From positions 107,145-171,144 of the forward strand of contig JAFQHI010000017.1 in assembly GCA_017398045.1 (NCBI GenBank): DNA of 64,000 nt, in the 5' to 3' direction. The position numbers and the translations under genes were made by a program. The DNA is from Alistipes sp. GTDB lineage: Bacteria > Bacteroidota > Bacteroidia > Bacteroidales > Rikenellaceae. This document shows, in pieces, positions 3,360 to 15,924 of this stretch (position 1 is its first letter; every line of letters starts with the position of its first letter). The notes under the pieces were generated by a model. The model was given only the letters and a program-made list of their open reading frames with translations. It had not been told where the DNA came from and did no database searches.

Positions 3360-4475
3360 ATGAAACAAAGAATAGAATACATAGATGCGCTTCGAGGTTT
3401 TACGATGATATTGGTAGTGTTTGCTCACCTTGAAGGTTTCTGCTTATTAAAAGAAGGTTTTGGCTCACTCACGCCTCTCAATTCCCTCTTTCAATCTTTC
3501 AGGATGCCTCTATTCTTTTTCGTCAGCGGATTCATTGCATTTAAAACAACATCACACGGTAGGGGGGGGGAACGATTTTTTCGAGCGAGTATAAAAAAAG
3601 CTAAAGTTATTATTCCGACCTTATTTTTCGGATTAATATACACCTACTTATATATAGACAAAGACTTAATTTTTTTTATCACTGATGCAGCCAAAGGAGG
3701 TTATTGGTTTACTCTTGTCTTGCTAGAAATCTTTATAATTTATTACATCGTTAACCTATTATTACCACTCCAGGGGAATGTAGAAAAATCGCGACTTGTT
3801 GACAAATGGACTATTGCACTAATATGCCTTAGTATATTTTTATACTTAATTAAATTACCCCTAAAGCTAAATCCAACTCTTCAATTATTCGGAGATATAA
3901 CAAGTTTACACTATACATGTGAGTATTTTCAATTCTTTTCATTTGGTTTATTATCTGCAAGATACAGCAAATTCACCACAAACATACTAGGCAATTCCAA
4001 ATTGTGTGCAATAACCATTATATCATTCTTCACCCTTTGGTATATCAAGACTTATTACATAGTTCCTCATGAAACATTTAGCATAGATTATTGGAAAATT
4101 ACAGCAACCGTCTTTGATTCTCTGACTGGTTATTTAGGAATACTCACAATATTTGGCTGTTTTAGAAAGTATCAAAATTACTTGTCTACAGCAACAAAAG
4201 TAGGACGGTTGTTATCATTTATTGGCCGCAGAACACTTGATATATATCTATTACATTACTTCTTTTTATCGCCCATGCCAAGCATTGGTGCATGGTTGGA
4301 AAAGAATCCCAACATAGTTGTCGAGCTATCAACAGGTTTAATATTATCTTTACTCATTATTGGCTGTTGCCTCCTTATCAGTCAATTATTAAGGACAAGC
4401 AATTTCTTGGCGCAATGGTTGTTTGGCGCAAAAAAGACAATCGTGCCTGATACCCATAAACATATCACTACGTGA
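3360..4475 (+). CDS. Acyltransferase 3 family membrane protein (putative O-acyltransferase)
   Basis: A 371-residue integral membrane protein. The start is the ATG at 3360 giving MKQRIEYIDALRGFTM; the RxxxxDxLRG-type opening is typical of the acyltransferase 3 (OafA/WecH) family. About ten hydrophobic helices follow. The likely role is acetylation or another acylation of a polysaccharide sugar in the cytoplasmic membrane. The gene is AT-rich but contains a run of nine G (3562-3570) near codon 68, which would be prone to slippage. Its stop codon overlaps the GTG start of the next gene (GTGA), showing tight translational coupling. Confidence 0.8.
   Translation: MKQRIEYIDALRGFTMILVVFAHLEGFCLLKEGFGSLTPLNSLFQSFRMPLFFFVSGFIAFKTTSHGRGGERFFRASIKKAKVIIPTLFFGLIYTYLYIDKDLIFFITDAAKGGYWFTLVLLEIFIIYYIVNLLLPLQGNVEKSRLVDKWTIALICLSIFLYLIKLPLKLNPTLQLFGDITSLHYTCEYFQFFSFGLLSARYSKFTTNILGNSKLCAITIISFFTLWYIKTYYIVPHETFSIDYWKITATVFDSLTGYLGILTIFGCFRKYQNYLSTATKVGRLLSFIGRRTLDIYLLHYFFLSPMPSIGAWLEKNPNIVVELSTGLILSLLIIGCCLLISQLLRTSNFLAQWLFGAKKTIVPDTHKHITT
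3562..3570 (+). repeat. G9 homopolymer inside the acyltransferase gene
   Basis: Nine consecutive G within an otherwise AT-rich coding sequence, near codon 68, encoding part of HGRGGER. A change of one base would shift the frame of the rest of the membrane protein. Runs of this length are known contingency-locus switches in other bacteria; that it varies here is inference. Confidence 0.6.
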
Positions 4476-5611
4476 AACTCATCTACTGCATACACTCGGT
4501 TTATAATCCGGGGGGGATGGAGCGGGTACTCCTGAACAAGGTCTCCTTTTTGGTGGAGAAGTTAGGATGGGAGATTCTGATTGTCACCACCGACCAGCAC
4601 AATCGGCCACCCTTCTACCCCTTCCCGAGTCAGGTTCGGATGGTCGATTTAGGAATCAACTACTCCGAGGATAACAAGTTGGGTACCATAGCCAAAGTGC
4701 GAGGCTACTTGCGTCGGCGCAAGATGCACAAAAAGGCTCTCACCGAACTCCTAATGCGCGAAAAGGCCGACATCGTCATTTCGCTCTACCCGTCGGAATC
4801 CTCCTTTCTCTGCGATATCCGCGATGGCAGCAAGAAGGTATTGGAGTTGCATTTCTGCAAATTCTTCCGTCTGCAATATGGGCGTAAGGGGTTGATGGGA
4901 CTCATTGACCGCTATCGCACCTGGCTCGACGAGCGCATTGTACGCCGCTTCGACCGTTTTGTCGTACTCACCGAGGAGGACAAAGGCTACTGGGGAAATC
5001 TGCCCAATTTGGAGGTTATTCCCAATGCTGCCCTCTTCATTGCACCTCGTCTCTCCACCCAAACCGAAAAGCGGGTTATTGCCGTCGGACGACTCGATTA
5101 CCAGAAAGGGTTTGACCGCCTGATTCAAGCGTGGAGACTCGTACAACAAAATCCGGGATGCCAAGATTGGCGATTGGACATTTTCGGTCAAGGCGAGTGG
5201 CAAGAGATGCTCGAAGCGATGATTCATGAATATGGATTGACACACTCGGCTCACATCAATACCCCCTCCAAGCGGATTGGTGAAGAGTACGCCGCCAGCT
5301 CGTTACTGGTTATGAGTTCTCACTATGAAGGGTTCCCGATGGTGATGATAGAAGCGATGGCGTGCGGCCTTCCGGTCGTCGCTTTTGATTTCAAATGCGG
5401 GCCGAAGGATATCATTCTGGAGGGGCAAAACGGAATCATTGTACCCGAAGGCGATATTCCACAATTAGCCCAGGCCATCACACAGCTTATTGAGCAAGAA
5501 TCCCTGCGCAAAGCCATGTCTAAAGAGGCTCGGGAAGTCACCAATCGTTACTCCGAGGAGCGCATCATGCAACAATGGATTGACCTCTTCACTTCGCTTG
5601 TTTCTCGATGA
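4472..5611 (+). CDS. Glycosyltransferase family 4 (GT-B)
   Basis: A 379-residue GT-B glycosyltransferase. The N-terminal domain has the GGMERVL loop near residues 14-20 that binds the acceptor side. The C-terminal domain begins around residue 200 with AVGRLDYQKGFDRLI and carries the nucleotide-sugar signature SSHYEGFPMVMIEAMACG (E-x7-E) near residue 290. Translation starts at GTG overlapping the upstream stop codon and ends overlapping the next start (ATGA), so three genes are coupled. Composition returns to GC-rich from this gene on. A G7 run sits at 4510-4516. It likely adds a sugar to a lipid-linked surface glycan. Confidence 0.88.
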   Translation: MKLIYCIHSVYNPGGMERVLLNKVSFLVEKLGWEILIVTTDQHNRPPFYPFPSQVRMVDLGINYSEDNKLGTIAKVRGYLRRRKMHKKALTELLMREKADIVISLYPSESSFLCDIRDGSKKVLELHFCKFFRLQYGRKGLMGLIDRYRTWLDERIVRRFDRFVVLTEEDKGYWGNLPNLEVIPNAALFIAPRLSTQTEKRVIAVGRLDYQKGFDRLIQAWRLVQQNPGCQDWRLDIFGQGEWQEMLEAMIHEYGLTHSAHINTPSKRIGEEYAASSLLVMSSHYEGFPMVMIEAMACGLPVVAFDFKCGPKDIILEGQNGIIVPEGDIPQLAQAITQLIEQESLRKAMSKEAREVTNRYSEERIMQQWIDLFTSLVSR

Positions 5612-6843: not shown

Positions 6844-6863
6844 CCGAATTTACAACTCGATGA

Positions 6864-6890
6864 AAGCCGACCTCAAAGGTCGGTTTTTTT
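6864..6890 (+). terminator. Rho-independent terminator of the first glycan operon
   Basis: CCGACCT (6867-6873) pairs with AGGTCGG (6877-6883) around a 3-base loop and is followed by seven T. It closes the glycosyltransferase cluster. Confidence 0.85.
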
Positions 6891-7050
6891 GTTCTCACTT
6901 TTCAGGTTGTTTCGATAGAAAGGTTGTCTAAAGGGATGGAGAGCGGGGAGGGTGGGAGGAGCGGGAAGAGAGGCGGGCAAAAAATTGGGTGTAAGGGGTT
7001 GAGAGAGATGTCGTAAAAACGAAAAAAAGTTGTAAAAAAAGCCTTGAAAA

Positions 7051-7082
7051 TTTCATTATTAGCATAGAGATATGTATATTTG
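7051..7082 (+). promoter_or_regulatory. Promoter candidate for the polysaccharide export operon
   Basis: TATATTTG at 7075-7082 matches the Bacteroidetes -7 consensus TAnnTTTG. The -33 position holds only TTTC (7051-7054) at 20 bp spacing, so the -33 element is weak. Transcription would start near 7089, giving a leader of about 200 bases. Confidence 0.55.
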
Positions 7083-7141
7083 CACGGAATATCCACTCCT
7101 CTCTGCGCCGGTTTTCCGGACGGTGATGGAGCGAAATACAA

Positions 7142-7186
7142 GGCTTAAGTGATTAAGAATCAGCGTATTTTATGATTCTTAAAGCC
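7142..7186 (+). promoter_or_regulatory. Leader hairpin upstream of the polysaccharide export operon
   Basis: TTAAGAATCA (7153-7162) and TGATTCTTAA (7173-7182) are perfect 10-bp inverted repeats around a 10-base loop; flanking GGCTT (7142-7146) and AAGCC (7182-7186) can extend the stem with a bulge. There is no T run after it, so it is more likely a regulatory or protein-binding structure than a simple terminator. It ends 107 bp before the first start codon. Confidence 0.55.
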
Positions 7187-7292
7187 CTCGAGGTATGCTC
7201 AAACGGCAACAAAACAACTTATAACAAGTTCCCAAAAGAGCCAAATTTGAGTTTTTTAGCAGCTCAAAATTCACAAAAAAAACGGGTAAAAG

Positions 7293-8423
7293 ATGACATC
7301 ACTCAAGGTATTGCAACTTGGAAAATTCTATCCCATCCGCGGTGGGGTGGAGAAGGTGATGTACGACCTGATGACAGGCTTGTCGGAGCAGGGCGTTCGG
7401 TGCGATATGCTTTGTGCCGTAGAGGGTAAAAGCGAGACGATTCGTCTGAACGACCACGCCAACCTGATTTGCTGTCATGCCGTGAAGAAGGTGGCCGCGA
7501 CGATGATTTCGCCCTCGATGGTGTGGACCTTGCGCAAGATTTGCCGCGAGTACGACATCATCCACATCCACCATCCCGACCCGATGGCCTGCCTCGCGCT
7601 CTTCCTTTCGGGCTACAAGGGGCGTGTCATCTTGCATTGGCACAGCGACATTCTCAAGCAGAAGAACCTGCTGAAGCTCTACCGACCGTTGCAGCGTTGG
7701 CTCATCAACCGTGCCGAGCGCATTGTCGGCACCACACCGCTCTACCTGCAGGAGTCGCCCTTTTTGACCGATGTGCAGGAGAAGACCGTCTGTGTCCCCA
7801 TCGGCATCGTACCTCCTGCGGATGATAGTGGCAACACGGCCGGGGAGGAGATTCGTCAGCAGTTCCCCGACAAGACAATCATCTTCTCGTTGGGACGTCT
7901 GGTCGAGTACAAGGGGTTCGAACACCTGATTGAGGCGGCCCGCTACCTCAACGACCGATTTGTCATCCTCATTGGTGGCAGCGGCCCTCTGAAAGAGCAG
8001 CTGCAGGCTAAAATCGACCATTTTGGTCTTGGCGAAAAGGTGAAATTGTTAGGTTTTTTGAGCGAGAAGGAGCTGCCGGCCTACTACAAGGCTTGCGACC
8101 TCTTCTGCCTTTCGTCGGTGTACAAGACCGAGGCTTTCGGCATCGTGCAGATTGAGGCCATGAGCTACGCAAAACCCGTTGTCGCCACCACCATCGAGGG
8201 TTCCGGCGTCCATTGGGTCAATGCCGAAGGTGAGTCGGGTCTCAATGCCAAGAAGGGCGATGCCCGCGCTTTGGCCAAGGCGATGCGTGCCATCACCTCC
8301 CATCCGATGATTTATGCCCGCTATTCGGAGGGTGCAAAGCAACGCTTCAAGGCCATGTTTACCCTCGAAAAGATGGTCAATAATATGCTGGCCGTCTACA
8401 CCAAAAAAGAAGAAACACGTTAA
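7293..8423 (+). CDS. Glycosyltransferase family 4 (GT-B)
   Basis: A 376-residue GT-B glycosyltransferase that opens the second polysaccharide operon. The N-terminus has the IRGGVEKV acceptor loop (residues about 14-21); the C-terminal domain starts near residue 190 with SLGRLVEYKGFEHLI and has the donor-binding signature VYKTEAFGIVQIEAMSYAKP near residues 275-294. The ATG at 7293 gives a standard length. Followed by the phosphoglycosyl transferase gene after 24 bp. It probably adds the second or a later sugar to the lipid-linked unit begun by its neighbour (inference from order). Confidence 0.87.
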   Translation: MTSLKVLQLGKFYPIRGGVEKVMYDLMTGLSEQGVRCDMLCAVEGKSETIRLNDHANLICCHAVKKVAATMISPSMVWTLRKICREYDIIHIHHPDPMACLALFLSGYKGRVILHWHSDILKQKNLLKLYRPLQRWLINRAERIVGTTPLYLQESPFLTDVQEKTVCVPIGIVPPADDSGNTAGEEIRQQFPDKTIIFSLGRLVEYKGFEHLIEAARYLNDRFVILIGGSGPLKEQLQAKIDHFGLGEKVKLLGFLSEKELPAYYKACDLFCLSSVYKTEAFGIVQIEAMSYAKPVVATTIEGSGVHWVNAEGESGLNAKKGDARALAKAMRAITSHPMIYARYSEGAKQRFKAMFTLEKMVNNMLAVYTKKEETR

Positions 8424-8447
8424 CTGATAATAGCTTATTGAACCAAC

Positions 8448-9107
8448 ATGAATCGTCTGTCACAACCTATTGAAGAGAGAGGATGTAGTAGAGAGAGTAC
8501 CATTACAGTGAAACAACCATCTATTGTTGCACGCTTCTTCAAGCGCACATTCGACATCGTATGTGCCGTGATTGGACTGATTACCTTTTCGTGGCTGATG
8601 CTCATTATCTGGGTGGCCATCAAATTAGAGGACCATGGACCGGCCATCTTCCACCAGGAGCGTATCGGATTGGGCGGCAAGCCCTTCACGTTGCACAAAT
8701 TCCGTTCGATGATTGTCGAAGCCGAGGCGGATGGTGCGCAACTCTATCACGATGGCGATGATAGACTGACGAAGGTGGGCCGTTTCATCCGCGACCACCA
8801 TATCGACGAGTTGCCGCAGCTCTGGAACGTGCTGAAGGGCGATATGTCGTTCGTGGGATATCGTCCCGAGCGTCAGGTCTTTATCGACCAAATCATGGAG
8901 CATGATCCGCGCTACGAGTTGCTCTATGTGATGCGTCCGGGTCTCTTCTCGATGGCCACGCTCTACAACGGCTACACGGACACGATGGAGAAGATGCTGG
9001 AGCGTCTGCGCATGGACCTGGAGTATATGACCAACTGCTCGTTCTGGCTCGACATGAAGATTATCACGCTGACGGCCGTGTCGATTCTCACGGGCAAGAA
9101 ATTTTAA
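8448..9107 (+). CDS. Phosphoglycosyl transferase (bacterial sugar transferase family)
   Basis: A 219-residue initiating sugar transferase, which moves a sugar-1-phosphate from a UDP-sugar onto undecaprenyl phosphate at the membrane. It has a single hydrophobic segment (residues about 32-55), a basic FKRTFDI entry, the motif KFRSMIVEAE, then DELPQLWNVLKGDMSFVGYR (the conserved catalytic region) and a late RPG. The length matches the small monotopic PglC-like core without the extra membrane domain of WbaP. It is followed after 17 bp by the PqqD-like gene. The first sugar cannot be inferred. Confidence 0.88.
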   Translation: MNRLSQPIEERGCSRESTITVKQPSIVARFFKRTFDIVCAVIGLITFSWLMLIIWVAIKLEDHGPAIFHQERIGLGGKPFTLHKFRSMIVEAEADGAQLYHDGDDRLTKVGRFIRDHHIDELPQLWNVLKGDMSFVGYRPERQVFIDQIMEHDPRYELLYVMRPGLFSMATLYNGYTDTMEKMLERLRMDLEYMTNCSFWLDMKIITLTAVSILTGKKF

Positions 9108-9124
9108 CCTCAAAGAAGCTATCG

Positions 9125-9397
9125 ATGCGACGCAACCCGAGACTCAAACTGCGGAAAATCGGCAAGATGTACATGATTGTCGATTCGCAAAGCGGGGCAG
9201 CCAATCTGACCAACGTCTATCAGCTGAACGAGACGGCGGCCACCCTTTGGCAACGCGTCGGTGAGGAGCATTTTACCACCGAGCAGGCCGCTCAAATCCT
9301 TGTCGAGGAGTATGACGTAGAGCTGGCCGAAGCGCAACGCGACGTAGAGCAACTCTTGGAGCGTTGGCGCGAATTCGGGCTTATTATCAGCGAATAA
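9125..9397 (+). CDS. PqqD-like protein (peptide-chaperone / RRE fold)
   Basis: A 90-residue protein with the PqqD-like winged-helix arrangement: a basic N-terminus, a strand pair, the NxxxxxLNETAATLW segment (residues about 30-43) and a C-terminal helix LLERWREFGLI. In known RiPP pathways this fold binds the leader of a precursor peptide; related PqqD proteins also occur in exopolysaccharide clusters of other phyla next to HPr-kinase-like genes. It lies 5 bp upstream of the nucleotidyltransferase gene and 17 bp after the sugar transferase. No precursor peptide gene is visible nearby, so the partner is unknown. Confidence 0.75.
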   Translation: MRRNPRLKLRKIGKMYMIVDSQSGAANLTNVYQLNETAATLWQRVGEEHFTTEQAAQILVEEYDVELAEAQRDVEQLLERWREFGLIISE

Positions 9398-9401
9398 AAC
9401 G

Positions 9402-10496
9402 ATGCAATATACGGGAAAAACATATCGAGCCTTGCTGACGCTGCTGCAAGCCGGCCTTTGGGAGCGCAGACCACAAGATATCTCGATGTTTCCCCTCTCG
9501 GAGGCCGAGTGGCAATCGGTCTTCATTTTGGCACAACAACAGACCGTGTTGGGCATCACCTACCGCGGATTGGACTACCTGCCCGAGCATCTTTTTCCGT
9601 CGGGCGACCTGATTTTCCGCTGGGTAGCCGAAATCGGTCTGATTGAGGAGCGTAACCTGGAGAGCAACCAATCGCTCATCGAGTTACTGGAGCTGTTCGG
9701 CCAGGTGGGGCTGCGTCCCATCCTGCAAAAGGGGCAGGGTGTGGCCACCATGTACGACCGGCCGTTGCTCCGTTCGTGTGGCGATATCGACCTCTGGTTT
9801 CCGAGCCACAAGGAGGCCGAGAAGGCCTTGGAAATCGTGCGAGGAAAGGGTTGCACGCCCGAAAAGGCACCCGATGGCAGTTTCCACTACCATTGGCGCG
9901 GCATCGAGGTGGAACACCATCCCGACCTGATTGACCTTCAGGCCATTGGCGTAAAGCGTTGGGCGCGCAAGCAGGTCAAAGCCATGCAGCCCGCCACGGT
10001 TACCCTTCCCGAGCATCCCGAGCGAGCCATCCAGACCCCCTCGGCAACCATAAACCTGTTGCTCATCAATGCCCATATCTGCAAACACGCCATCGGTTTG
10101 GGCGTGGGATTGAGGCAGATGTGCGATATGGCCCGCGCCTATCATGCACTGCATCGTGAGGTCGATGGCGAACAGATTCGTTCCCTCTACCGACGTGCAG
10201 GCCTTGAGCGATGGAGCAACCTGTTGCACCGCTTTTTGGTCGATTACATCGGCCTGGAGGAGCATCTGCTCCCCTACCGCAGCAAATTGGAGGAGAGTGC
10301 GCGTCCGCTGCTGAAGGTGGTCCTGCGCGGAGGAAATTTCGGCCGTTACGCCGCCGACCGCGAAGTGGTGATGGGCAACCTTTGGCAACGCAAATGGCAC
10401 ACGGCACTGAGCTTCGTGCGCAACTGCCGATTCTCGTTCCGCTATGCCCCTGCCGAGGCGATATGGACCGTATGGCAACTCGCTAAAGGGCAGTAA
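9402..10496 (+). CDS. Nucleotidyltransferase-fold protein (NTP_transf_5-like)
   Basis: A 364-residue protein. After an N-terminal helical region it carries LQKGQGVATMYDRP and then CGDIDLWF (residues about 107-132), the G(S/D)-x-D-x-D type motif of the nucleotidyltransferase superfamily as found in the PF14907 group. That family occurs with PqqD-like and HPr-kinase-like proteins in lasso-peptide tailoring clusters and in exopolysaccharide operons; its reaction is not settled. The spacing (5 bp before, 2 bp after) shows one transcription unit. The DxD pair is intact, so it is probably active. The substrate may be the same molecule the neighbouring kinase-like protein acts on (inference). Confidence 0.75.
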   Translation: MQYTGKTYRALLTLLQAGLWERRPQDISMFPLSEAEWQSVFILAQQQTVLGITYRGLDYLPEHLFPSGDLIFRWVAEIGLIEERNLESNQSLIELLELFGQVGLRPILQKGQGVATMYDRPLLRSCGDIDLWFPSHKEAEKALEIVRGKGCTPEKAPDGSFHYHWRGIEVEHHPDLIDLQAIGVKRWARKQVKAMQPATVTLPEHPERAIQTPSATINLLLINAHICKHAIGLGVGLRQMCDMARAYHALHREVDGEQIRSLYRRAGLERWSNLLHRFLVDYIGLEEHLLPYRSKLEESARPLLKVVLRGGNFGRYAADREVVMGNLWQRKWHTALSFVRNCRFSFRYAPAEAIWTVWQLAKGQ

Positions 10497-10498
10497 GG

Positions 10499-11401
10499 AT
10501 GAGCCGCACGACCCGCTATCGCATTGCCGAATTGGAGGTGGAGGTGGAGCTGCCTGCCGGTGTGGATGCCTCGCTCGTACTACCTACGGCCGAACCGTTC
10601 CGCATCGCAACGACCGACCAGGAACCGGCACTCCGTTTCACCACGATGGGATTTACGGAGGCGGTTGCATCGCTCACCGAAGAGCCGCGGTTTCGTAGCG
10701 AGGAGCAGAACGACATGGGGCGGGTAAGGCTCTACACGTGGGGTGACAAGCACCTTATCGAGGTGAGCTACCGCGAAGCCTTCTGCCACCGCATGGTTAT
10801 CGATTGTACGCTACGCCACGCAACGGCCGAGATGCAATGGGAGGACCCGACCTGCAAAGAGTCGCTCGGTTCGCTGCTGCGCATCGCCTACTCGATGGCT
10901 ATCCTGCCCCACGCAGGGGTCTCGATACACGCCTCTGCAATCCACTACAACGGAGAGGCTATCCTCTTCCTGGGTAAGAGTGGCACGGGCAAGAGTACGC
11001 ACGCACGCCTTTGGTTGCGACACGCAGCAGGGGCTACCCTACTGAACGACGACAATCCGATGTTGCGCGTGCAGGGGGCGAAGTTGATGGCCTATGGCTC
11101 GCCTTGGAGTGGCAAAGGGGCCTGCTACCGCAACGAGGGCTACCCCGTGAGGGGCATTGTGCGATTGAGCCAGGCAACCGAGAACCGCTTCCGCGAACTA
11201 CACGACGAGGAGGCCTTCATCGCCCTGTTGCCGAGTTGCTCGGTGGTTCGCCACGACGAAGGGATGGAGGATATGAGCCTCGACCTGCTGGGCGAGATAC
11301 TCGAACGAGTGGTGGTTGCACACCTCGCCTGCCGTCCCGACAAAGAGGCCTACATTGCCTGCCACGAGGGGCTTTACCCCACGGTGAAGGATGAACTATA
11401 A
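10499..11401 (+). CDS. HPr-kinase-like P-loop protein
   Basis: A 300-residue protein related to the C-terminal domain of HPr kinase/phosphorylase. The P-loop is GKSGTGKST (residues about 159-167), followed by LLNDDNP (about 182-188) and AYGSPWSGKG (about 198-207), the pattern of the HprK-related group. The N-terminal ~130 residues are a separate domain not recognised. It is not true HprK, since the operon is for polysaccharide export. The PqqD-like, nucleotidyltransferase-like and kinase-like genes stand together within about 30 bp of spacers in total. The phosphorylated target is unknown. Confidence 0.75.
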   Translation: MSRTTRYRIAELEVEVELPAGVDASLVLPTAEPFRIATTDQEPALRFTTMGFTEAVASLTEEPRFRSEEQNDMGRVRLYTWGDKHLIEVSYREAFCHRMVIDCTLRHATAEMQWEDPTCKESLGSLLRIAYSMAILPHAGVSIHASAIHYNGEAILFLGKSGTGKSTHARLWLRHAAGATLLNDDNPMLRVQGAKLMAYGSPWSGKGACYRNEGYPVRGIVRLSQATENRFRELHDEEAFIALLPSCSVVRHDEGMEDMSLDLLGEILERVVVAHLACRPDKEAYIACHEGLYPTVKDEL

Positions 11402-11438
11402 AGGAAGATTAAGAGTAACAATAAACACATAAAACATC

Positions 11439-12227
11439 ATGCGAAACAAAATTCTGCTTATGGGCCTGATGCTCGTTCTCTTCAGTTCCTGCGCATCGTC
11501 GAAGAAATTCGTCTATTTGCAGGACCTCAAGGCGGGTCAAAAGGAGGCCTTTGACATCAAGCACGAGGCCATCGTACATCGCGACGACCGCTTGCGTATC
11601 ACGGTAAGTTGCAAAAGTCCGGAGTTGGCTCTGCCGTTCAACAACCAGAACGGTGTCGTATCGGTCTCGGCCGATGGCAATGTAGAGTCGGTTCGTGGCG
11701 TAGCGAAGGAGACGGGCTATCGCGTCGATATCGATGGTAACATCATCTTCCCGATTTTGGGCAAACTTCAGGTCGAGGGGTTGACCGTCAGCCAGGTGTC
11801 GGAACTCATTCGCAACAAAATCATCGAGGGCAACTACATCAACGACCCGCAGGTCTCGATTGAGTTCCTGAACTTCAAATATTCGGTCCTGGGCGCATCG
11901 GGTGCCGGCGTCTATTCGGTGGATGGCGACCGCATCACCCTTCTTGAGGCCTTGGCACAGGCCGGAGACCTGGCTACGAATGCCCGTGTGGACCAGGTGC
12001 TGGTCATCCGCGAGAAGGGCAACGAGCGTGAGGTCTTCGCCCACGATTTGCGCTCGAAGGAGATTTTCAACTCGCCGGCCTTCTACCTCCAGCAGAACGA
12101 TGTGATTTATGTCGTACCGAAGTACCGCAAGCAGGATACCGAGTCGAAGGTGCTGCAATACCTGACCCTTGTCCTCTCGATGGCAACGGCCGCCTCGTCG
12201 ATTCTCTGGTACATCGACCGCAAATAA
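11439..12227 (+). CDS. Polysaccharide export lipoprotein (Wza-like)
   Basis: A 262-residue outer-membrane export protein. The signal peptide ends with the lipobox LFSSC (Cys about 18). The Poly_export domain spans residues about 45-140 (DDRLRITV, GNIIFPILGKLQVEGLT), followed by an SLBB-type domain with VLGASGAGVYSV near 148-160. A hydrophobic helix at the C-terminus (residues about 236-258) would form the outer-membrane pore helix as in Wza. It precedes the Wzc-like kinase by 44 bp, the usual pairing in Wzy-dependent export. No phosphatase of the Wzb type is in the window. Confidence 0.9.
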   Translation: MRNKILLMGLMLVLFSSCASSKKFVYLQDLKAGQKEAFDIKHEAIVHRDDRLRITVSCKSPELALPFNNQNGVVSVSADGNVESVRGVAKETGYRVDIDGNIIFPILGKLQVEGLTVSQVSELIRNKIIEGNYINDPQVSIEFLNFKYSVLGASGAGVYSVDGDRITLLEALAQAGDLATNARVDQVLVIREKGNEREVFAHDLRSKEIFNSPAFYLQQNDVIYVVPKYRKQDTESKVLQYLTLVLSMATAASSILWYIDRK

Positions 12228-12271
12228 CCGCGTTTCATATTACCCAAGCAACGAGCTAACACTTTCGCTTT

Positions 12272-14671
12272 ATGCAAACCAAAACAAAACAGAACAAAAC
12301 AGACGAAATCAATATTGCCGAACTGTTTATGTTCCTCTTCTCGAAGTGGCCCTGGTTCCTGCTCTCGATTGCCCTCTGCGTCGGGTTGGCCTGGTACTAC
12401 TACGCCTCTTCGCCCTTTGTCTATTTCCGCACGGCTACGGTCTTCATCAAAGACCCCGCCCAGAAGACCGCTTCGGCTGGTCTGGACCGCTACGACAACT
12501 ACATCAACAAGGTCAATGTAGCGAGTGAGATTTATCGCTTCCGCACGAAAAACCTCATGCGCGAAGTGGTCAAACGCGCCCATGCCGACGTGAGCTACAC
12601 GATTGAGGATGGGTTGCGCGACAAGGAGCTGTACACCTCCTCGCCGGTGCAGGTGACCTTCCCCGAGGAGGCGCAGAACCATCGTATCGCCTTCACGCTC
12701 AAGCTGAAGGATACGAAAACGGTCGAATTGAGCGACTTCGAGGCGATGGAGGATGCCAAGCCCGTCACCGCGATGCTTGGTGACACGGTGGCGATTTACG
12801 CCGGCAAGCTTGTCATCACCCCGACCAACTTCTGCAACGAGCAGTGGACGGGTCGTGAGATTCGCGTAACGAAAAGCCCCATCAACCAGATGGTTGGCTA
12901 CTTCCTCTCGAACTTCGGTGTGCGTCAGGAGTCGGAAGAGGCCTCGATTTTGGCCCTCTCGATGAAGGACAACTCCCCGATTCGTGCCGAGGATATGCTC
13001 AACACGCTTATTGCCGTCTATAACGAGGAGTCGATTCGCGACAAGAACCAGGTGGCTATCAACACGGCCAACTTCATCAACGAGCGACTGATTATCATCG
13101 AGCGCGAGCTGGGTTCTGTGGAGCAGGACCTCGAGAGCTACAAGGTGAGCAACGACATGATTAACCTCGAGACCACGGCCGGTCAGGCTGTGAGCGAGAC
13201 GACACAACACGGTGCCAACCTCATCGAGCTGGAGACCCAGCTCCAATATGCCTCCTACATCCGCGACTACCTCACCGACCCCACGAAGGAGATTGAGCTG
13301 ATTCCGGCCAATACGGGGTTGAGCAACATTAACATCGAGACGCAAATCAACCAATACAACACGATGAAGTTGCGTCGCGATAAGTTCATCGTCGATGGTA
13401 ACGATTCGAACCCCGTGATTCAGGAGTTGAACAGTTCGTTGCGTGCCATGAAGCAGACGATTATCCGCGCCGTGGACAACCTTATTGCCAACCTGGAGGC
13501 CAAGATTAAGGACACCTCGAGCCGCGAGAATCGCGCCAAGGCCCGTGTGCGTTCGATTCCCCGCAAGGAGCGCGATATGCTCTCGATTGAGCGTCAGCAG
13601 AAGATTAAGGAGTCGCTGTATCTCTTCCTGCTGAACCGTCGCGAGGAGAACGCCCTGACGCAAGCCATGGCCGACAACAACGCCCAGATTATCGACAACG
13701 CCAGCGGTTCGTCGCGTCCGATTGCACCGTCGCGTAACCGTATTCTGCTCCTGGGTCTGATTATGGGTCTGGCCATTCCGGGTGTCTATTTCCTGCTTCG
13801 GATGTTCCTCGACACGCGCGTACACAGCAAGCGCGATATTAAGGAGGCTGTCAGCGTTCCCATCCTGGGCGATATTCCGCTCGACAAGGAGTTGTGGAAA
13901 CAGCCGCACAAGACCACGTTGGCACTCGTCGAGAAAAAGGAGGGTGCCATTGCCGAGTCGTTCCGCATCCTGCGCACCAATCTGCGATTCAAACTGCATG
14001 GCGGCATTAAATCGGCCGGTGCCGAGCATACGAGCCATGTCATCACCCTCACCTCGTTCAACGAGAGTGCCGGTAAGACCTTCATTGCAGGCAACCTGGC
14101 CATGAGTCTTGTCAATGCCGGTAAGCGTGTCATCGTGGTCGATATGGATATTCGCAAGGGTACCCTTTCGGCTCCCTATGGCGACCGCCACAAGGGTCTG
14201 ACAAACTTCCTGGCCGACGAAAGCTACCCGATGGCCGACCTCATTCGCAAGGATGCCATGGCTCCGGGTCTTGACCTGATTGCTGCCGGTACGATTGCCC
14301 CCAACCCTGCCGAGTTGCTGATGTCGGAGCGTCTGGATGAACTCTTTGCCTTCCTGCGTCAAACGTACGACTACATCGTGGCCGACAACGTGCCGATTGG
14401 TATCATTGCCGACGGTACCATCTCGAACCGCATTGCCGACCTGACGATTTTCGTCGTGCGTGCCGGCAAGCTCGACAAACGTCAGCTGCCCGAGCTGGAG
14501 GAGCTGTATCAGGAGAAGAAACTCCAAAACATGGCTCTTGTGGTCAATGGCACGGAGATTCATCGCCGCGGTTATGGCTACGGTTACGGATATGGCTATG
14601 GTTACGGCTACGGGTATGGTTACGGCTATGGCTACGGCGCATCCTCGGAGAAGAAATCGAAGAAAAAATAA
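12272..14671 (+). CDS. Polysaccharide co-polymerase / tyrosine kinase (Wzc-like)
   Basis: A 799-residue inner-membrane protein of the Wzc type. It has a Wzz-like N-terminus with a membrane segment near residues 25-50, a long periplasmic region with coiled-coil parts, a second membrane segment near 490-510, and a cytoplasmic BY-kinase domain. The kinase has Walker A NESAGKT (about 593), Walker A' VVDMDIRKG (about 621) and a Walker B region YIVADNVPIG. The tail from residue 767 is an alternating GY repeat with 11 tyrosines, then a lysine-rich end; the tyrosines are the expected autophosphorylation sites. It controls polymer length and export with the Wza-like protein. Confidence 0.9.
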   Translation: MQTKTKQNKTDEINIAELFMFLFSKWPWFLLSIALCVGLAWYYYASSPFVYFRTATVFIKDPAQKTASAGLDRYDNYINKVNVASEIYRFRTKNLMREVVKRAHADVSYTIEDGLRDKELYTSSPVQVTFPEEAQNHRIAFTLKLKDTKTVELSDFEAMEDAKPVTAMLGDTVAIYAGKLVITPTNFCNEQWTGREIRVTKSPINQMVGYFLSNFGVRQESEEASILALSMKDNSPIRAEDMLNTLIAVYNEESIRDKNQVAINTANFINERLIIIERELGSVEQDLESYKVSNDMINLETTAGQAVSETTQHGANLIELETQLQYASYIRDYLTDPTKEIELIPANTGLSNINIETQINQYNTMKLRRDKFIVDGNDSNPVIQELNSSLRAMKQTIIRAVDNLIANLEAKIKDTSSRENRAKARVRSIPRKERDMLSIERQQKIKESLYLFLLNRREENALTQAMADNNAQIIDNASGSSRPIAPSRNRILLLGLIMGLAIPGVYFLLRMFLDTRVHSKRDIKEAVSVPILGDIPLDKELWKQPHKTTLALVEKKEGAIAESFRILRTNLRFKLHGGIKSAGAEHTSHVITLTSFNESAGKTFIAGNLAMSLVNAGKRVIVVDMDIRKGTLSAPYGDRHKGLTNFLADESYPMADLIRKDAMAPGLDLIAAGTIAPNPAELLMSERLDELFAFLRQTYDYIVADNVPIGIIADGTISNRIADLTIFVVRAGKLDKRQLPELEELYQEKKLQNMALVVNGTEIHRRGYGYGYGYGYGYGYGYGYGYGYGASSEKKSKKK
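14570..14638 (+). repeat. Hexanucleotide-type repeat encoding a GY tail
   Basis: Eleven Gly-Tyr units in a row (tyrosines at residues 768 to 788, every second residue). Synonymous codons alternate (tat/tac; ggc, ggt, gga, ggg), so the DNA repeat is imperfect and slippage is less likely than if it were perfect. The tail forms the tyrosine cluster of the kinase. Confidence 0.85.
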
Positions 14672-14712
14672 CAAACAAATAACTTAATATTCACTTCTAA
14701 ACATTTTCACGT

Positions 14713-15924
14713 ATGAAAAAACTTTTAACCCTTCTTGCATTTGCCCTGATGGCAGGTGCGACCTTCGCACAGACGGCCGACGTCGAGGAGGAGGTCATCT
14801 ACGAGAAGAACAAGCACAAGGTGATTACGAACACCTTCTGGGACAACTGGTGGGTCCAGATTGGCGGTGGTGCGCAGGTGTACTACGGTGACCACAACAA
14901 GCAGATGGACTTCGTGGACCGTCTTTCGCTTGCTCTTGATGCCGGTTTCGGTAAGTGGTTCAGCCCGCAGATTGGTGTACGCGCCATGATTAGCGGTTTG
15001 ACGATTAACGGTGCTACGCAGACCTATGGCGGAACCGGTATCCACGACACGGGTAAGCCCGTTGATGGCAAATATACGCACGAGTATGGTTTCCTCAACG
15101 AGCAGCAGTTCGACTACTACAACCTGCACGCTGATGTGCTGTTCAATATGTCGAACATTCTGTGCGGCTACAAGGAGAAGCGCACCTGGAACTGCTCGCC
15201 CTACCTGGGTCTGGGTTGGATGGTAACGTGGGAGAGCCCCCGCGCCCGTGAGTTGAGCCTCAACTTCGGTATCTTCAACGCCATTCGCTTGAGCGAGAAG
15301 TTCGATTTCAACATCGACCTGCGCACGACGATGGTTAAGGACTCGTTCGACGGCGACGAGGGTGGCCGTAAGGAGGAGGGTCTTTGGACCGCAACCTTCG
15401 GCTTCTCGTACAAGTTCAAGAAGCGTGGCTGGGACCGTTCGAAGACCATCATCCGCAACAACCGCGCCGAGGCCAATGCCCTTCAGAAGCAGCTCGATGC
15501 CCTGCGTGAGCAGAACGAGGCTCTGAAGAACGATTTGAAGGATGCCGAGGCACAGATTAAAGAGGTAAAGGTTATCGAGAAGGAGCAGATGGTAGCTCCG
15601 GTATATGTAGTCTTCGAGATTGGCAAGTCGGAGCTTTCGAAGGAGGCTCGCGTAACGCTGGGTCTGCTGGCCAAGGCTATCAAGGAGGCTCCGGAGGGTG
15701 CGATTTACAACATCTCGGGCTATGCTGACGAGGGTACGGGTTCGAAGCGTATCAACGAGAAGCTTTCGGCTGACCGCGCCCAGGCCGTTTACAACTGCCT
15801 CACGGAGGAGTACGGTGTGGATGAGAGCCAGCTGCGCGTAGTATCGAAGGGTGGTGTGGACAATATGTTCTACGACGACCCGACGTTGAGCCGTGCCGTA
15901 ATTGCTGGTGAGATTCACGAGTAG
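14713..15924 (+). CDS. OmpA family outer-membrane protein
   Basis: A 403-residue protein with a signal peptide (MKKLLTLLAFALMAGATFAQ), a probable eight-stranded barrel over residues about 35-245, a short coiled coil (about 258-290, EQNEALKNDLKDAEAQIKEV), and a C-terminal OmpA-like peptidoglycan-binding domain (about 297-400) with NISGYADEGTGS and RAQAVYNCL. It starts 41 bp after the Wzc-like gene and is followed by a strong terminator, so it is probably the last gene of the export operon. It may anchor the outer membrane near the export machinery (inference) or simply be read through. Confidence 0.88.
   Translation: MKKLLTLLAFALMAGATFAQTADVEEEVIYEKNKHKVITNTFWDNWWVQIGGGAQVYYGDHNKQMDFVDRLSLALDAGFGKWFSPQIGVRAMISGLTINGATQTYGGTGIHDTGKPVDGKYTHEYGFLNEQQFDYYNLHADVLFNMSNILCGYKEKRTWNCSPYLGLGWMVTWESPRARELSLNFGIFNAIRLSEKFDFNIDLRTTMVKDSFDGDEGGRKEEGLWTATFGFSYKFKKRGWDRSKTIIRNNRAEANALQKQLDALREQNEALKNDLKDAEAQIKEVKVIEKEQMVAPVYVVFEIGKSELSKEARVTLGLLAKAIKEAPEGAIYNISGYADEGTGSKRINEKLSADRAQAVYNCLTEEYGVDESQLRVVSKGGVDNMFYDDPTLSRAVIAGEIHE

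Follow-up and report, generated by a model that had tools for sequence, protein, structure and literature searches.

Gene organization of the window operon

A set of three genes (the trio) encoding a PqqD-family protein, a PF14907 nucleotidyltransferase (NTase) and a kinase resembling HprK was analysed in a 64,000-nucleotide stretch of an Alistipes sp. genome (GenBank assembly GCA_017398045.1, contig JAFQHI010000017.1), referred to here as the window. The three open reading frames (ORFs) were found on the plus strand at positions 9125-9397, 9402-10496 and 10499-11401, respectively, where an earlier preliminary description of this DNA had placed them. Also in agreement with that description, they lie within an exopolysaccharide (EPS) operon, between the gene for a Bac_transf initiating sugar transferase (8448-9107; PF02397, E 2e-61) and the genes for a Wza/OPX export lipoprotein (11439-12227; PF02563, E 6e-19) and a Wzc-type tyrosine autokinase/co-polymerase (12272-14674; TIGR01007, above cut-off). 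A GT4-family glycosyltransferase gene (7293-8423; PF00534, E 3e-36) is the probable first gene of the operon, and a gene for an OmpA-family protein (14713-15924; PF00691, E 2e-16) follows wzc; all are on the plus strand. From Bac_transf through the trio to wza, the spacers measure 17, 4, 2 and 37 bases; of the two internal ones, described earlier as 5 and 2 bp, the second was correct and the first is one base shorter.

The search with profile hidden Markov models that the preliminary description had proposed bore out two of its family assignments, that of the first protein to PqqD (PF05402, E 4e-16), a family of RiPP recognition elements (RREs; RiPP, ribosomally synthesized and post-translationally modified peptide), and that of the second to PF14907 (E 1e-36). 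The third protein, termed HprK-like here, fell under all Pfam cut-offs (Hpr_kinase_C, E 0.02) and its NCBIfam scores were weak (ScmC, 6e-6; HprK_rel_A, 8e-5). The GDIDLWF and GKSGTGKST motifs reported earlier were both found in the trio.

A search of ORFs of 28 or more codons over the whole 64 kb with the peptide profile described below (E 0.01) gave no candidate precursor, as the preliminary description had stated for this region, and there is no peptide gene between wzc and the OmpA gene of the window, unlike in two relatives. An ORF at 7172-7426 was considered as a precursor and rejected, having no match to Pfam or to the peptide profile. Upstream of the operon, a promoter-like box, TATATTTG, lies at 7075-7082 on the plus strand; it is the sole plus-strand occurrence of the pattern TAnnTTTG in 6844-7293, and there is none in 8424-12300. 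It resembles a Bacteroidetes-type -7 box. The window Wzc ends, before 14674, in a long Gly-Tyr repeat tail, and similar tails were noted on Wzc of three of the relatives described next (L090, L091 and L092).

EPS-linked loci in related genomes

Eight EPS loci carrying the set were identified: that of the window, L034 (genome G127), L035 (G164), L036 (G163), L003, L090 (G550), L091 (G558) and L092 (G201). The three closest relatives of the kinase among 200 genomes of the same family lay in the same operon (L034, L035 and L036). L003, from a Bacteroidales metagenome-assembled genome of goat cecum, was the sole relative obtained from a scan of genome contigs; there the trio precedes wza-wzc, and Bac_transf is replaced upstream by a WecA-type Glycos_transf_4 protein and a Polysacc_synt_2 protein. 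L090, from the same order, has the arrangement GT4-Bac_transf-PqqD-NTase-HprK-Wza-Wzc-peptide-lipoprotein-OmpA-S24-ABC, and L091 and L092, from another order of the same class, have GT4-S24-PqqD-NTase-ABC-HprK-Wza-Wzc, where S24 denotes an S24-like peptidase and ABC an ABC exporter. Overall, the set stands directly upstream of wza-wzc in 8/8 loci and adjoins Bac_transf in five of them.

In quick trees, the kinases of the eight loci together with one further G201 kinase formed a single clade spanning two orders (SH-aLRT 97), and the EPS NTases grouped with two further G201 NTases and one NTase from a module of the wider system described below (support 94). The next conserved gene after wzc encodes a small peptide in L035 and L090, and also in two further G201 loci, L093 and L094. 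Both of these, on G201:C1, read wzc-peptide-lipoprotein-PqqD, with HprK next in one and NTase next in the other. A chance estimate of 5e-8 for the peptide near wzc (4/10 loci) is too optimistic, because the peptide family was first found in loci preselected for the module, and was given no weight.

Conservation of the trio beside export genes, which the preliminary description had proposed to survey, was evident in the eight EPS loci but does not extend to EPS export in general. Five further wza-wzc loci, from genomes of the same genus, had no trio within 1.5 kb (from a Wza search of eight genomes, four of them positive), and an NTase of the trio type (E below 1e-180) was present in 4/200 genomes of the family; the trio is therefore no general component of EPS export. 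Among 395 genomes of the phylum, the NTase was EPS-linked in four of the seven genomes with a match.

Residue conservation and the LPP family

Linear polyphosphorylated peptide (LPP) RiPPs were described in May 2026 by Popov et al. from the lppAKBSDN genes of Paenibacillus alginolyticus, which encode the precursor LppA, the HprK-like kinase LppK, the RRE LppB, the SipW-like peptidase LppS, the MsbA-like exporter LppD and the nucleoside triphosphate (NTP) transferase LppN (PMC13381572). Steps shown in Bacillota are binding of the leader, addition of phosphates to Ser3 of an A-Q-S core and RRE-dependent cleavage by LppS, whereas LppN had no detectable effect in B. subtilis (PMC13381572).

The His-Lys-Asp-Asp motif described for kinases of this type (PMC9266682) corresponds to H144, K165, D184 and D185 of the window kinase, which were kept in 37/37 aligned rows (44 were collected and seven left out, two of these being far relatives) and mark the protein as LppK-like. 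In the NTase, K110, R124, D128 and D130 were kept in 45/45 rows and position 171 was E or D in all of them (47 rows less two short ones, with matches weaker than 1e-8 excluded from the collection). The likeness of this protein to LppN, and to PsmN of the pseudomycoidin pathway, is one of family name only, and neither the kinase nor the NTase profile matched a solved structure. The PqqD protein may be termed LppB-like: D73 was kept in 27/27 rows, N35 in 26 and Y63 in 25 (3 of 30 rows left out), and these align, through structure 9x8z, with D70, N33 and Y60 of LppB, the first two of which hold Tyr-16 and the Pro kink of the leader (PMC13381572). The RRE family profile also matched lasso RREs of solved structure, namely TfuB1 (4.5e-8), TbiB1 (4e-4) and PbaB1 (5e-4).

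The S24-like peptidase kept S30, H69 and D84 in 32/32 rows (2 of 34 left out), in the same order as the S29/H68/D93 triad of LppS, to which it may be related; its NCBIfam matches were to signal peptidases, weak and below cut-off. For the ABC exporter encoded on contig C15 of the window genome, the best NCBIfam model was MsbA (E 2e-78, below cut-off), with a PglK model nearly equal. A search of PHROGs gave no useful match. Free variation of catalytic residues, which by the preliminary description would have counted against a functional module, was not seen in these wide samples, and because the residues are invariant the conservation of the trio is, as judged from sequence, not a matter of chance.

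A wider five-gene system

An NTase profile built from the first five EPS loci matched 7/395 genomes of the phylum and 38/393 genomes of the order. The order-level matches fell in 43 places, 39 of which form the locus set counted here while the other four were fetched separately. All five of HprK, S24-like peptidase, PqqD, NTase and ABC exporter were present in 12/39 loci, with the reservation that the ABC profile also matches other ABC proteins weakly, and PqqD occurred with NTase in 17/39 (18 if one weak pair is counted). The kinase stood with the NTase, or with the peptidase and/or exporter, in 20/20 stretches around kinase matches. In L236, a Phocaeicola massiliensis record labelled as a plasmid (OY725995.1) and standing outside all profiles, genes for a peptide, a lipoprotein (ORF), PqqD, NTase, ABC, HprK and S24 are contiguous; in L235, from Prevotella sp. 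oral taxon 299, HprK-S24-PqqD are together and the NTase is about 8 kb away. These two and one record from Butyrivibrio were the three matches in the plasmid collection. Two phage records that lack annotation, derived from human faecal samples, gave partial HprK-like matches (MT835698.1, 14582-15097; MT835590.1, 26645-27130).

The core genes are together in relatives such as L090, L092 and L236 and split in the window genome. The latter has, in addition to the trio, an S24-HprK-ABC operon on contig C15 (L033, G000:C15:337500-357000), in which the genes for the exporter (10146-11867), the kinase (9293-10180) and the peptidase (8850-9293) are on the minus strand, as well as a second PqqD on C10 and a second NTase at C4:3769. 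The stretch around this NTase (L096, G000:C4:1-14000; NTase at 3550-4650, minus strand) resembles by eye an rml/sugar-transferase/glycosyltransferase locus and contains no PqqD or kinase gene. L033 lies beside UvrD/PDDEXK helicase-nuclease genes, and a similar neighbourhood, judged by ORF sizes, was seen in several stretches from the same genus. The possibility that this widespread second kinase, with its UvrD/PDDEXK neighbours, is unrelated was considered and rejected, the adjoining S24 and ABC genes being core genes of the same system.

Candidate precursors and lipoprotein partners

A Y..P motif was first noticed in small ORFs that adjoin the modules or follow wzc in L035; the peptide family thus originated from a motif search in loci already picked for the module. 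Eight seeds gave a first profile (A4), and its genome matches gave a second alignment (A5) of 29 rows from seven genomes, four of which belong to the family later surveyed; the eight-seed profile had between 2 and 13 matches (E up to 10) per genome in seven module-bearing genomes. All 29 aligned candidates fit the pattern YxxP-x9-E-x(3,4)-A-x(1,2)-S followed by an acidic tail. Tyr, Pro and one Glu are invariant and Ala is nearly so, and A-x-S or A-x-x-S sits 3-4 residues past the Glu in each peptide. The tails contain 26% D+E and 2% K+R, and 23 of the 29 have Trp.

An ORF with a lipobox lay directly downstream of the peptide in 26/31 cases by a strict pattern and in three more by eye, leaving two without (L205 and L198 being added by hand to the 31), as compared with 33/217 control ORFs with the same pattern. 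Among 12 of these lipoproteins that were scanned, four had a match, in one case above cut-off, to the fimbrillin-like Mfa_like_1 family, one each matched BspA-type leucine-rich repeats, BACON and PI-PLC-X above cut-off, and five had no notable family match. The window genome carries at least six of the peptides outside the window (L200-L205, read individually) and gave seven profile matches. The lipoprotein of L201 is 34% identical over its full length (E 3e-105) to that of the EPS operon of G164, while the L200 lipoprotein matched the latter weakly (112 residues, E 4e-4). The likeliest precursor for the window trio appears to be the peptide at C16:139477, whose neighbour is the putative counterpart of a lipoprotein encoded in a relative's EPS operon.

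Several YxxP or leader-like ORFs differed from this pattern. Those beside S24 and NTase genes at L130:12650-13781 (minus strand, four in tandem) and L132:36-227 have C-termini rich in Cys, Ser and Gly and possibly form a separate branch; one order-level peptide of this type weakly resembles ScmA (E 0.001). A lasso-type leader (lasso_leader_L3, E 0.011) was noted at L098:14581-14727 (plus strand) near divergent PqqD, HprK and ABC genes. In L159 (G163:C44), no lipoprotein was found behind a YxxP peptide beginning at 1483 (plus strand); another YxxP-like ORF overlaps this peptide or lies after it.

Genome-by-genome co-occurrence

Within the 200 genomes of the family, matches were obtained in 116 for the kinase (including G023, a weak match at E 4e-4), in 118 for the peptide, in 116 for PqqD and in 104 for the NTase. 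Kinase and peptide agreed in 192 genomes (both 113, kinase alone 3, peptide alone 5, neither 79) and RRE and peptide in 194 (both 114, RRE alone 2, peptide alone 4, neither 80), with phi coefficients of 0.92-0.94 for co-occurrence of peptide, kinase and RRE. No mismatch between kinase, peptide and PqqD was found in the 109 best assemblies (at least 90% complete and at most 5% contaminated), 67 of which had each of the three, and all ten genomes with a disagreement were less than 90% complete.

At the level of the order (198 genomes), there were 62 kinase-profile matches, most of them weak, and strong ones (E 1e-79 or better) in 10 genomes. One of the strong-kinase genomes, G767, had no profile peptide match yet holds a seed peptide (L100), from which it follows that the peptide profile loses distant peptides.

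Interpretation and alternative explanations

Gene content, synteny, residue conservation, the peptide family and genome-by-genome co-occurrence together make it probable, in our judgement, that the trio makes up one half, for substrate recognition and modification, of a RiPP pathway of the LPP type that serves this EPS locus specifically. On this interpretation, the PqqD protein would bind a small precursor by its YxxP leader, the kinase would place one or more phosphates on the Ser that is conserved in A-x(1,2)-S, close to where the core begins, and the PF14907 enzyme would extend the phosphate by a further group, a sugar or a nucleotide. Removal of the leader would then fall to a SipW/S24-like peptidase and secretion of the acidic peptide to an MsbA-like exporter, these two functions being supplied in trans in the window genome by the S24-HprK-ABC operon on C15. 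Cleavage before Ala, as in LppA, would make the Ser core residue 3 or 4, a position that we infer, because the Tyr-to-Ser distance is one to two residues longer here than in LppA. We likewise infer that the steps shown in Bacillota hold here, that the C15 peptidase and exporter are used, that the precursor is correctly assigned and that the pathway serves EPS. The earlier proposal that a PqqD-like adaptor presents a peptide, protein or glycan carrier to the kinase and NTase is thus favoured in its peptide form, the substrate probably being a small YxxP precursor. Control of polysaccharide initiation or export, the further part of that proposal, would be one possible role.

Possible roles of the peptide, which would be phosphorylated and strongly acidic, are cross-linking or anchoring of the polysaccharide, regulation of the polysaccharide, or the carrying of glycan. 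An unlikely elaboration is that the phosphoserine is the joining point of the operon glycan or of an activated sugar, so that the peptide would serve the exported polysaccharide as an anchor or primer and the partner lipoprotein would hold the polysaccharide in place. The undetected activity of LppN in a heterologous host would also fit such a role, as a glycan donor may be absent there (PMC13381572).

A number of observations weigh against an LPP-type pathway dedicated to this locus. The window operon itself lacks precursor, peptidase and exporter, the peptide was found in just two of the eight EPS loci within the fetched stretches, and the precursor proposed for the window genome was assigned from similarity alone. 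The longer Tyr-to-Ser spacing counts in the same direction, as does the closer match of the RRE profile to lasso RREs (TfuB1) than to LppB (E 0.04). The NTase is less tied to the peptide than are the other components (phi 0.79, agreement in 178/200 genomes): seven of the 109 best assemblies have the peptide and no NTase match (G066, G071, G112, G121, G136, G143 and G174), two have the NTase and no peptide (G012 and G026), and 15/39 order-level loci have the NTase with none of the other four genes. At this level, moreover, a peptide match was present in just 5/10 strong-kinase genomes, and two of the seven peptide genomes had no strong kinase match: G631 has a more weakly matching kinase, and its PqqD-NTase-ABC set lies where a contig ends, and G755 has no kinase match. 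Finally, the family genomes are related, so that their co-occurrence does not amount to 200 independent cases.

One alternative is that no peptide is involved and that PqqD serves as a scaffold for kinase and NTase, which would build a phospho-sugar or phospho-alcohol or transfer it to the growing polysaccharide or its lipid carrier. NTases of the same family adjoin Bac_transf, with no PqqD or kinase in the stretch, in L107, L108, L110 and the window genome's own L096, with its likeness by eye to an rml/glycosyltransferase locus, and the trio adjoins the initiating enzyme in 5/8 EPS loci. These four NTases, however, fell outside the EPS-trio group in the quick tree, the trio RRE keeps the nearly invariant residues that grip the leader, and YxxP peptides tend to be found in the same genomes as RRE and kinase, which leaves glycan modification of this kind quite unlikely. 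Regulatory phosphorylation, in which the HprK-like protein acts on Wzc, Bac_transf or an HPr-like protein with PqqD as adaptor, is suggested by the tyrosine autokinase nearby and the distant relationship to HPr kinase. We consider it very improbable, given that the kinase scores below every HPr-kinase cut-off and had as company the NTase, or else S24, ABC or both, in every stretch fetched around a kinase match; identity as HPr kinase proper or as a member of HPr-rel-A was rejected for scores far under the cut-offs.

It is equally improbable that the trio is an incomplete or relic lasso-peptide cluster, even though its PqqD, PF14907-type and HprK families are those of the paeninodin and pseudomycoidin tailoring enzymes (PMC9266682), a kinship drawn in the preliminary description and supported here, and although the best match of the RRE profile was to the lasso protein TfuB1. 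As had been stated earlier for this region, neither a cyclase (Asn synthase) nor a B2 protease (Transglut_core3) was found in the 19 window ORFs scanned, covering 1-26 kb (the search being of these ORFs and not of the rest of the genome), and the set recurs in two orders with catalytic residues intact and in company with an S24/SipW-like peptidase.

Comparison with known systems

Families named for HprK-like and PqqD-like proteins, HprK_rel_A (TIGR04352) and PqqD_rel_X (TIGR04353), pair, as their names suggest, in the HPr-rel-A system. The window proteins differ from them in scoring far below the cut-offs, at 21.8 bits against 200 and 21 against 35, respectively. The SynChlorMet cassette is linked to the present system by ScmC, the NCBIfam family that the kinase matched best, and by the ScmA-like order-level peptide, but the kinase reached 25.8 of 125 bits and no radical SAM match was found among the scanned neighbours. 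Paeninodin and pseudomycoidin clusters also have an HprK-like kinase (PadeK, PsmK), an annotated nucleotidyltransferase (PsmN) and a discrete RRE (PMC9266682), and YxxP is a known motif of lasso RREs (PMC12710340). PsmN is credited with placing hexoses on phosphoserine, with an alternative left open (PMC9266682). Differences are that no macrolactam cyclase or B2 protease was seen here and that the Ser is near the start of the core here and C-terminal in the lasso peptides.

The closest resemblance is to LPP, which shares the RRE, HprK-like kinase, NTP transferase, SipW-like peptidase, MsbA-like exporter and polysaccharide-locus setting, as well as YxxP precursors with variable C-termini and a conserved A-x(1,2)-S that compares with the A-Q-S, phosphorylated at Ser3, of LppA. 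Since this five-gene core was published as LPP in Bacillota (PMC13381572), the claim of the preliminary description that the system was undescribed was dropped. LPP loci are reported from capsular loci of Bacilli and LPPs are called Bacillota-restricted (PMC13381572). The peptidase cluster is, however, termed 'predominantly' Bacillota in that paper, so that its supplement may hold members from elsewhere; its main text has no word starting 'bacteroid'. A gut survey that includes Bacteroidota counts 'RRE-containing' clusters, and this set is not described in the available text of it (PMC12806405). Among the matches listed from the open-licence PMC literature, no account of this gene set in Bacteroidota was found.

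Apart from the host phylum, Bacteroidota as opposed to Bacillota, the present system differs from LPP in having several precursors scattered over the genome as opposed to one to three per cluster, in the predicted lipoprotein that mostly follows the precursor, and in an EPS operon that, in the window, contains RRE, NTase and kinase only, with peptidase and exporter on C15. Its leader diverges after YxxP, with the Ser one to two residues further on, and its RRE matches LppB only weakly. Thus, the system appears to be of a kind already known, in a phylum that is, as far as we found, new to it, and with a gene layout and partner protein that are new. It would extend into Bacteroidota a RiPP family described as Bacillota-restricted, with the kinase in more than half of the genomes surveyed from one family, and would supply many trans-encoded precursor candidates, mostly paired with a predicted lipoprotein. 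Because the EPS branch is kept across two orders, both the role of LPPs in polysaccharide loci and the addition made by the NTP transferase become testable.

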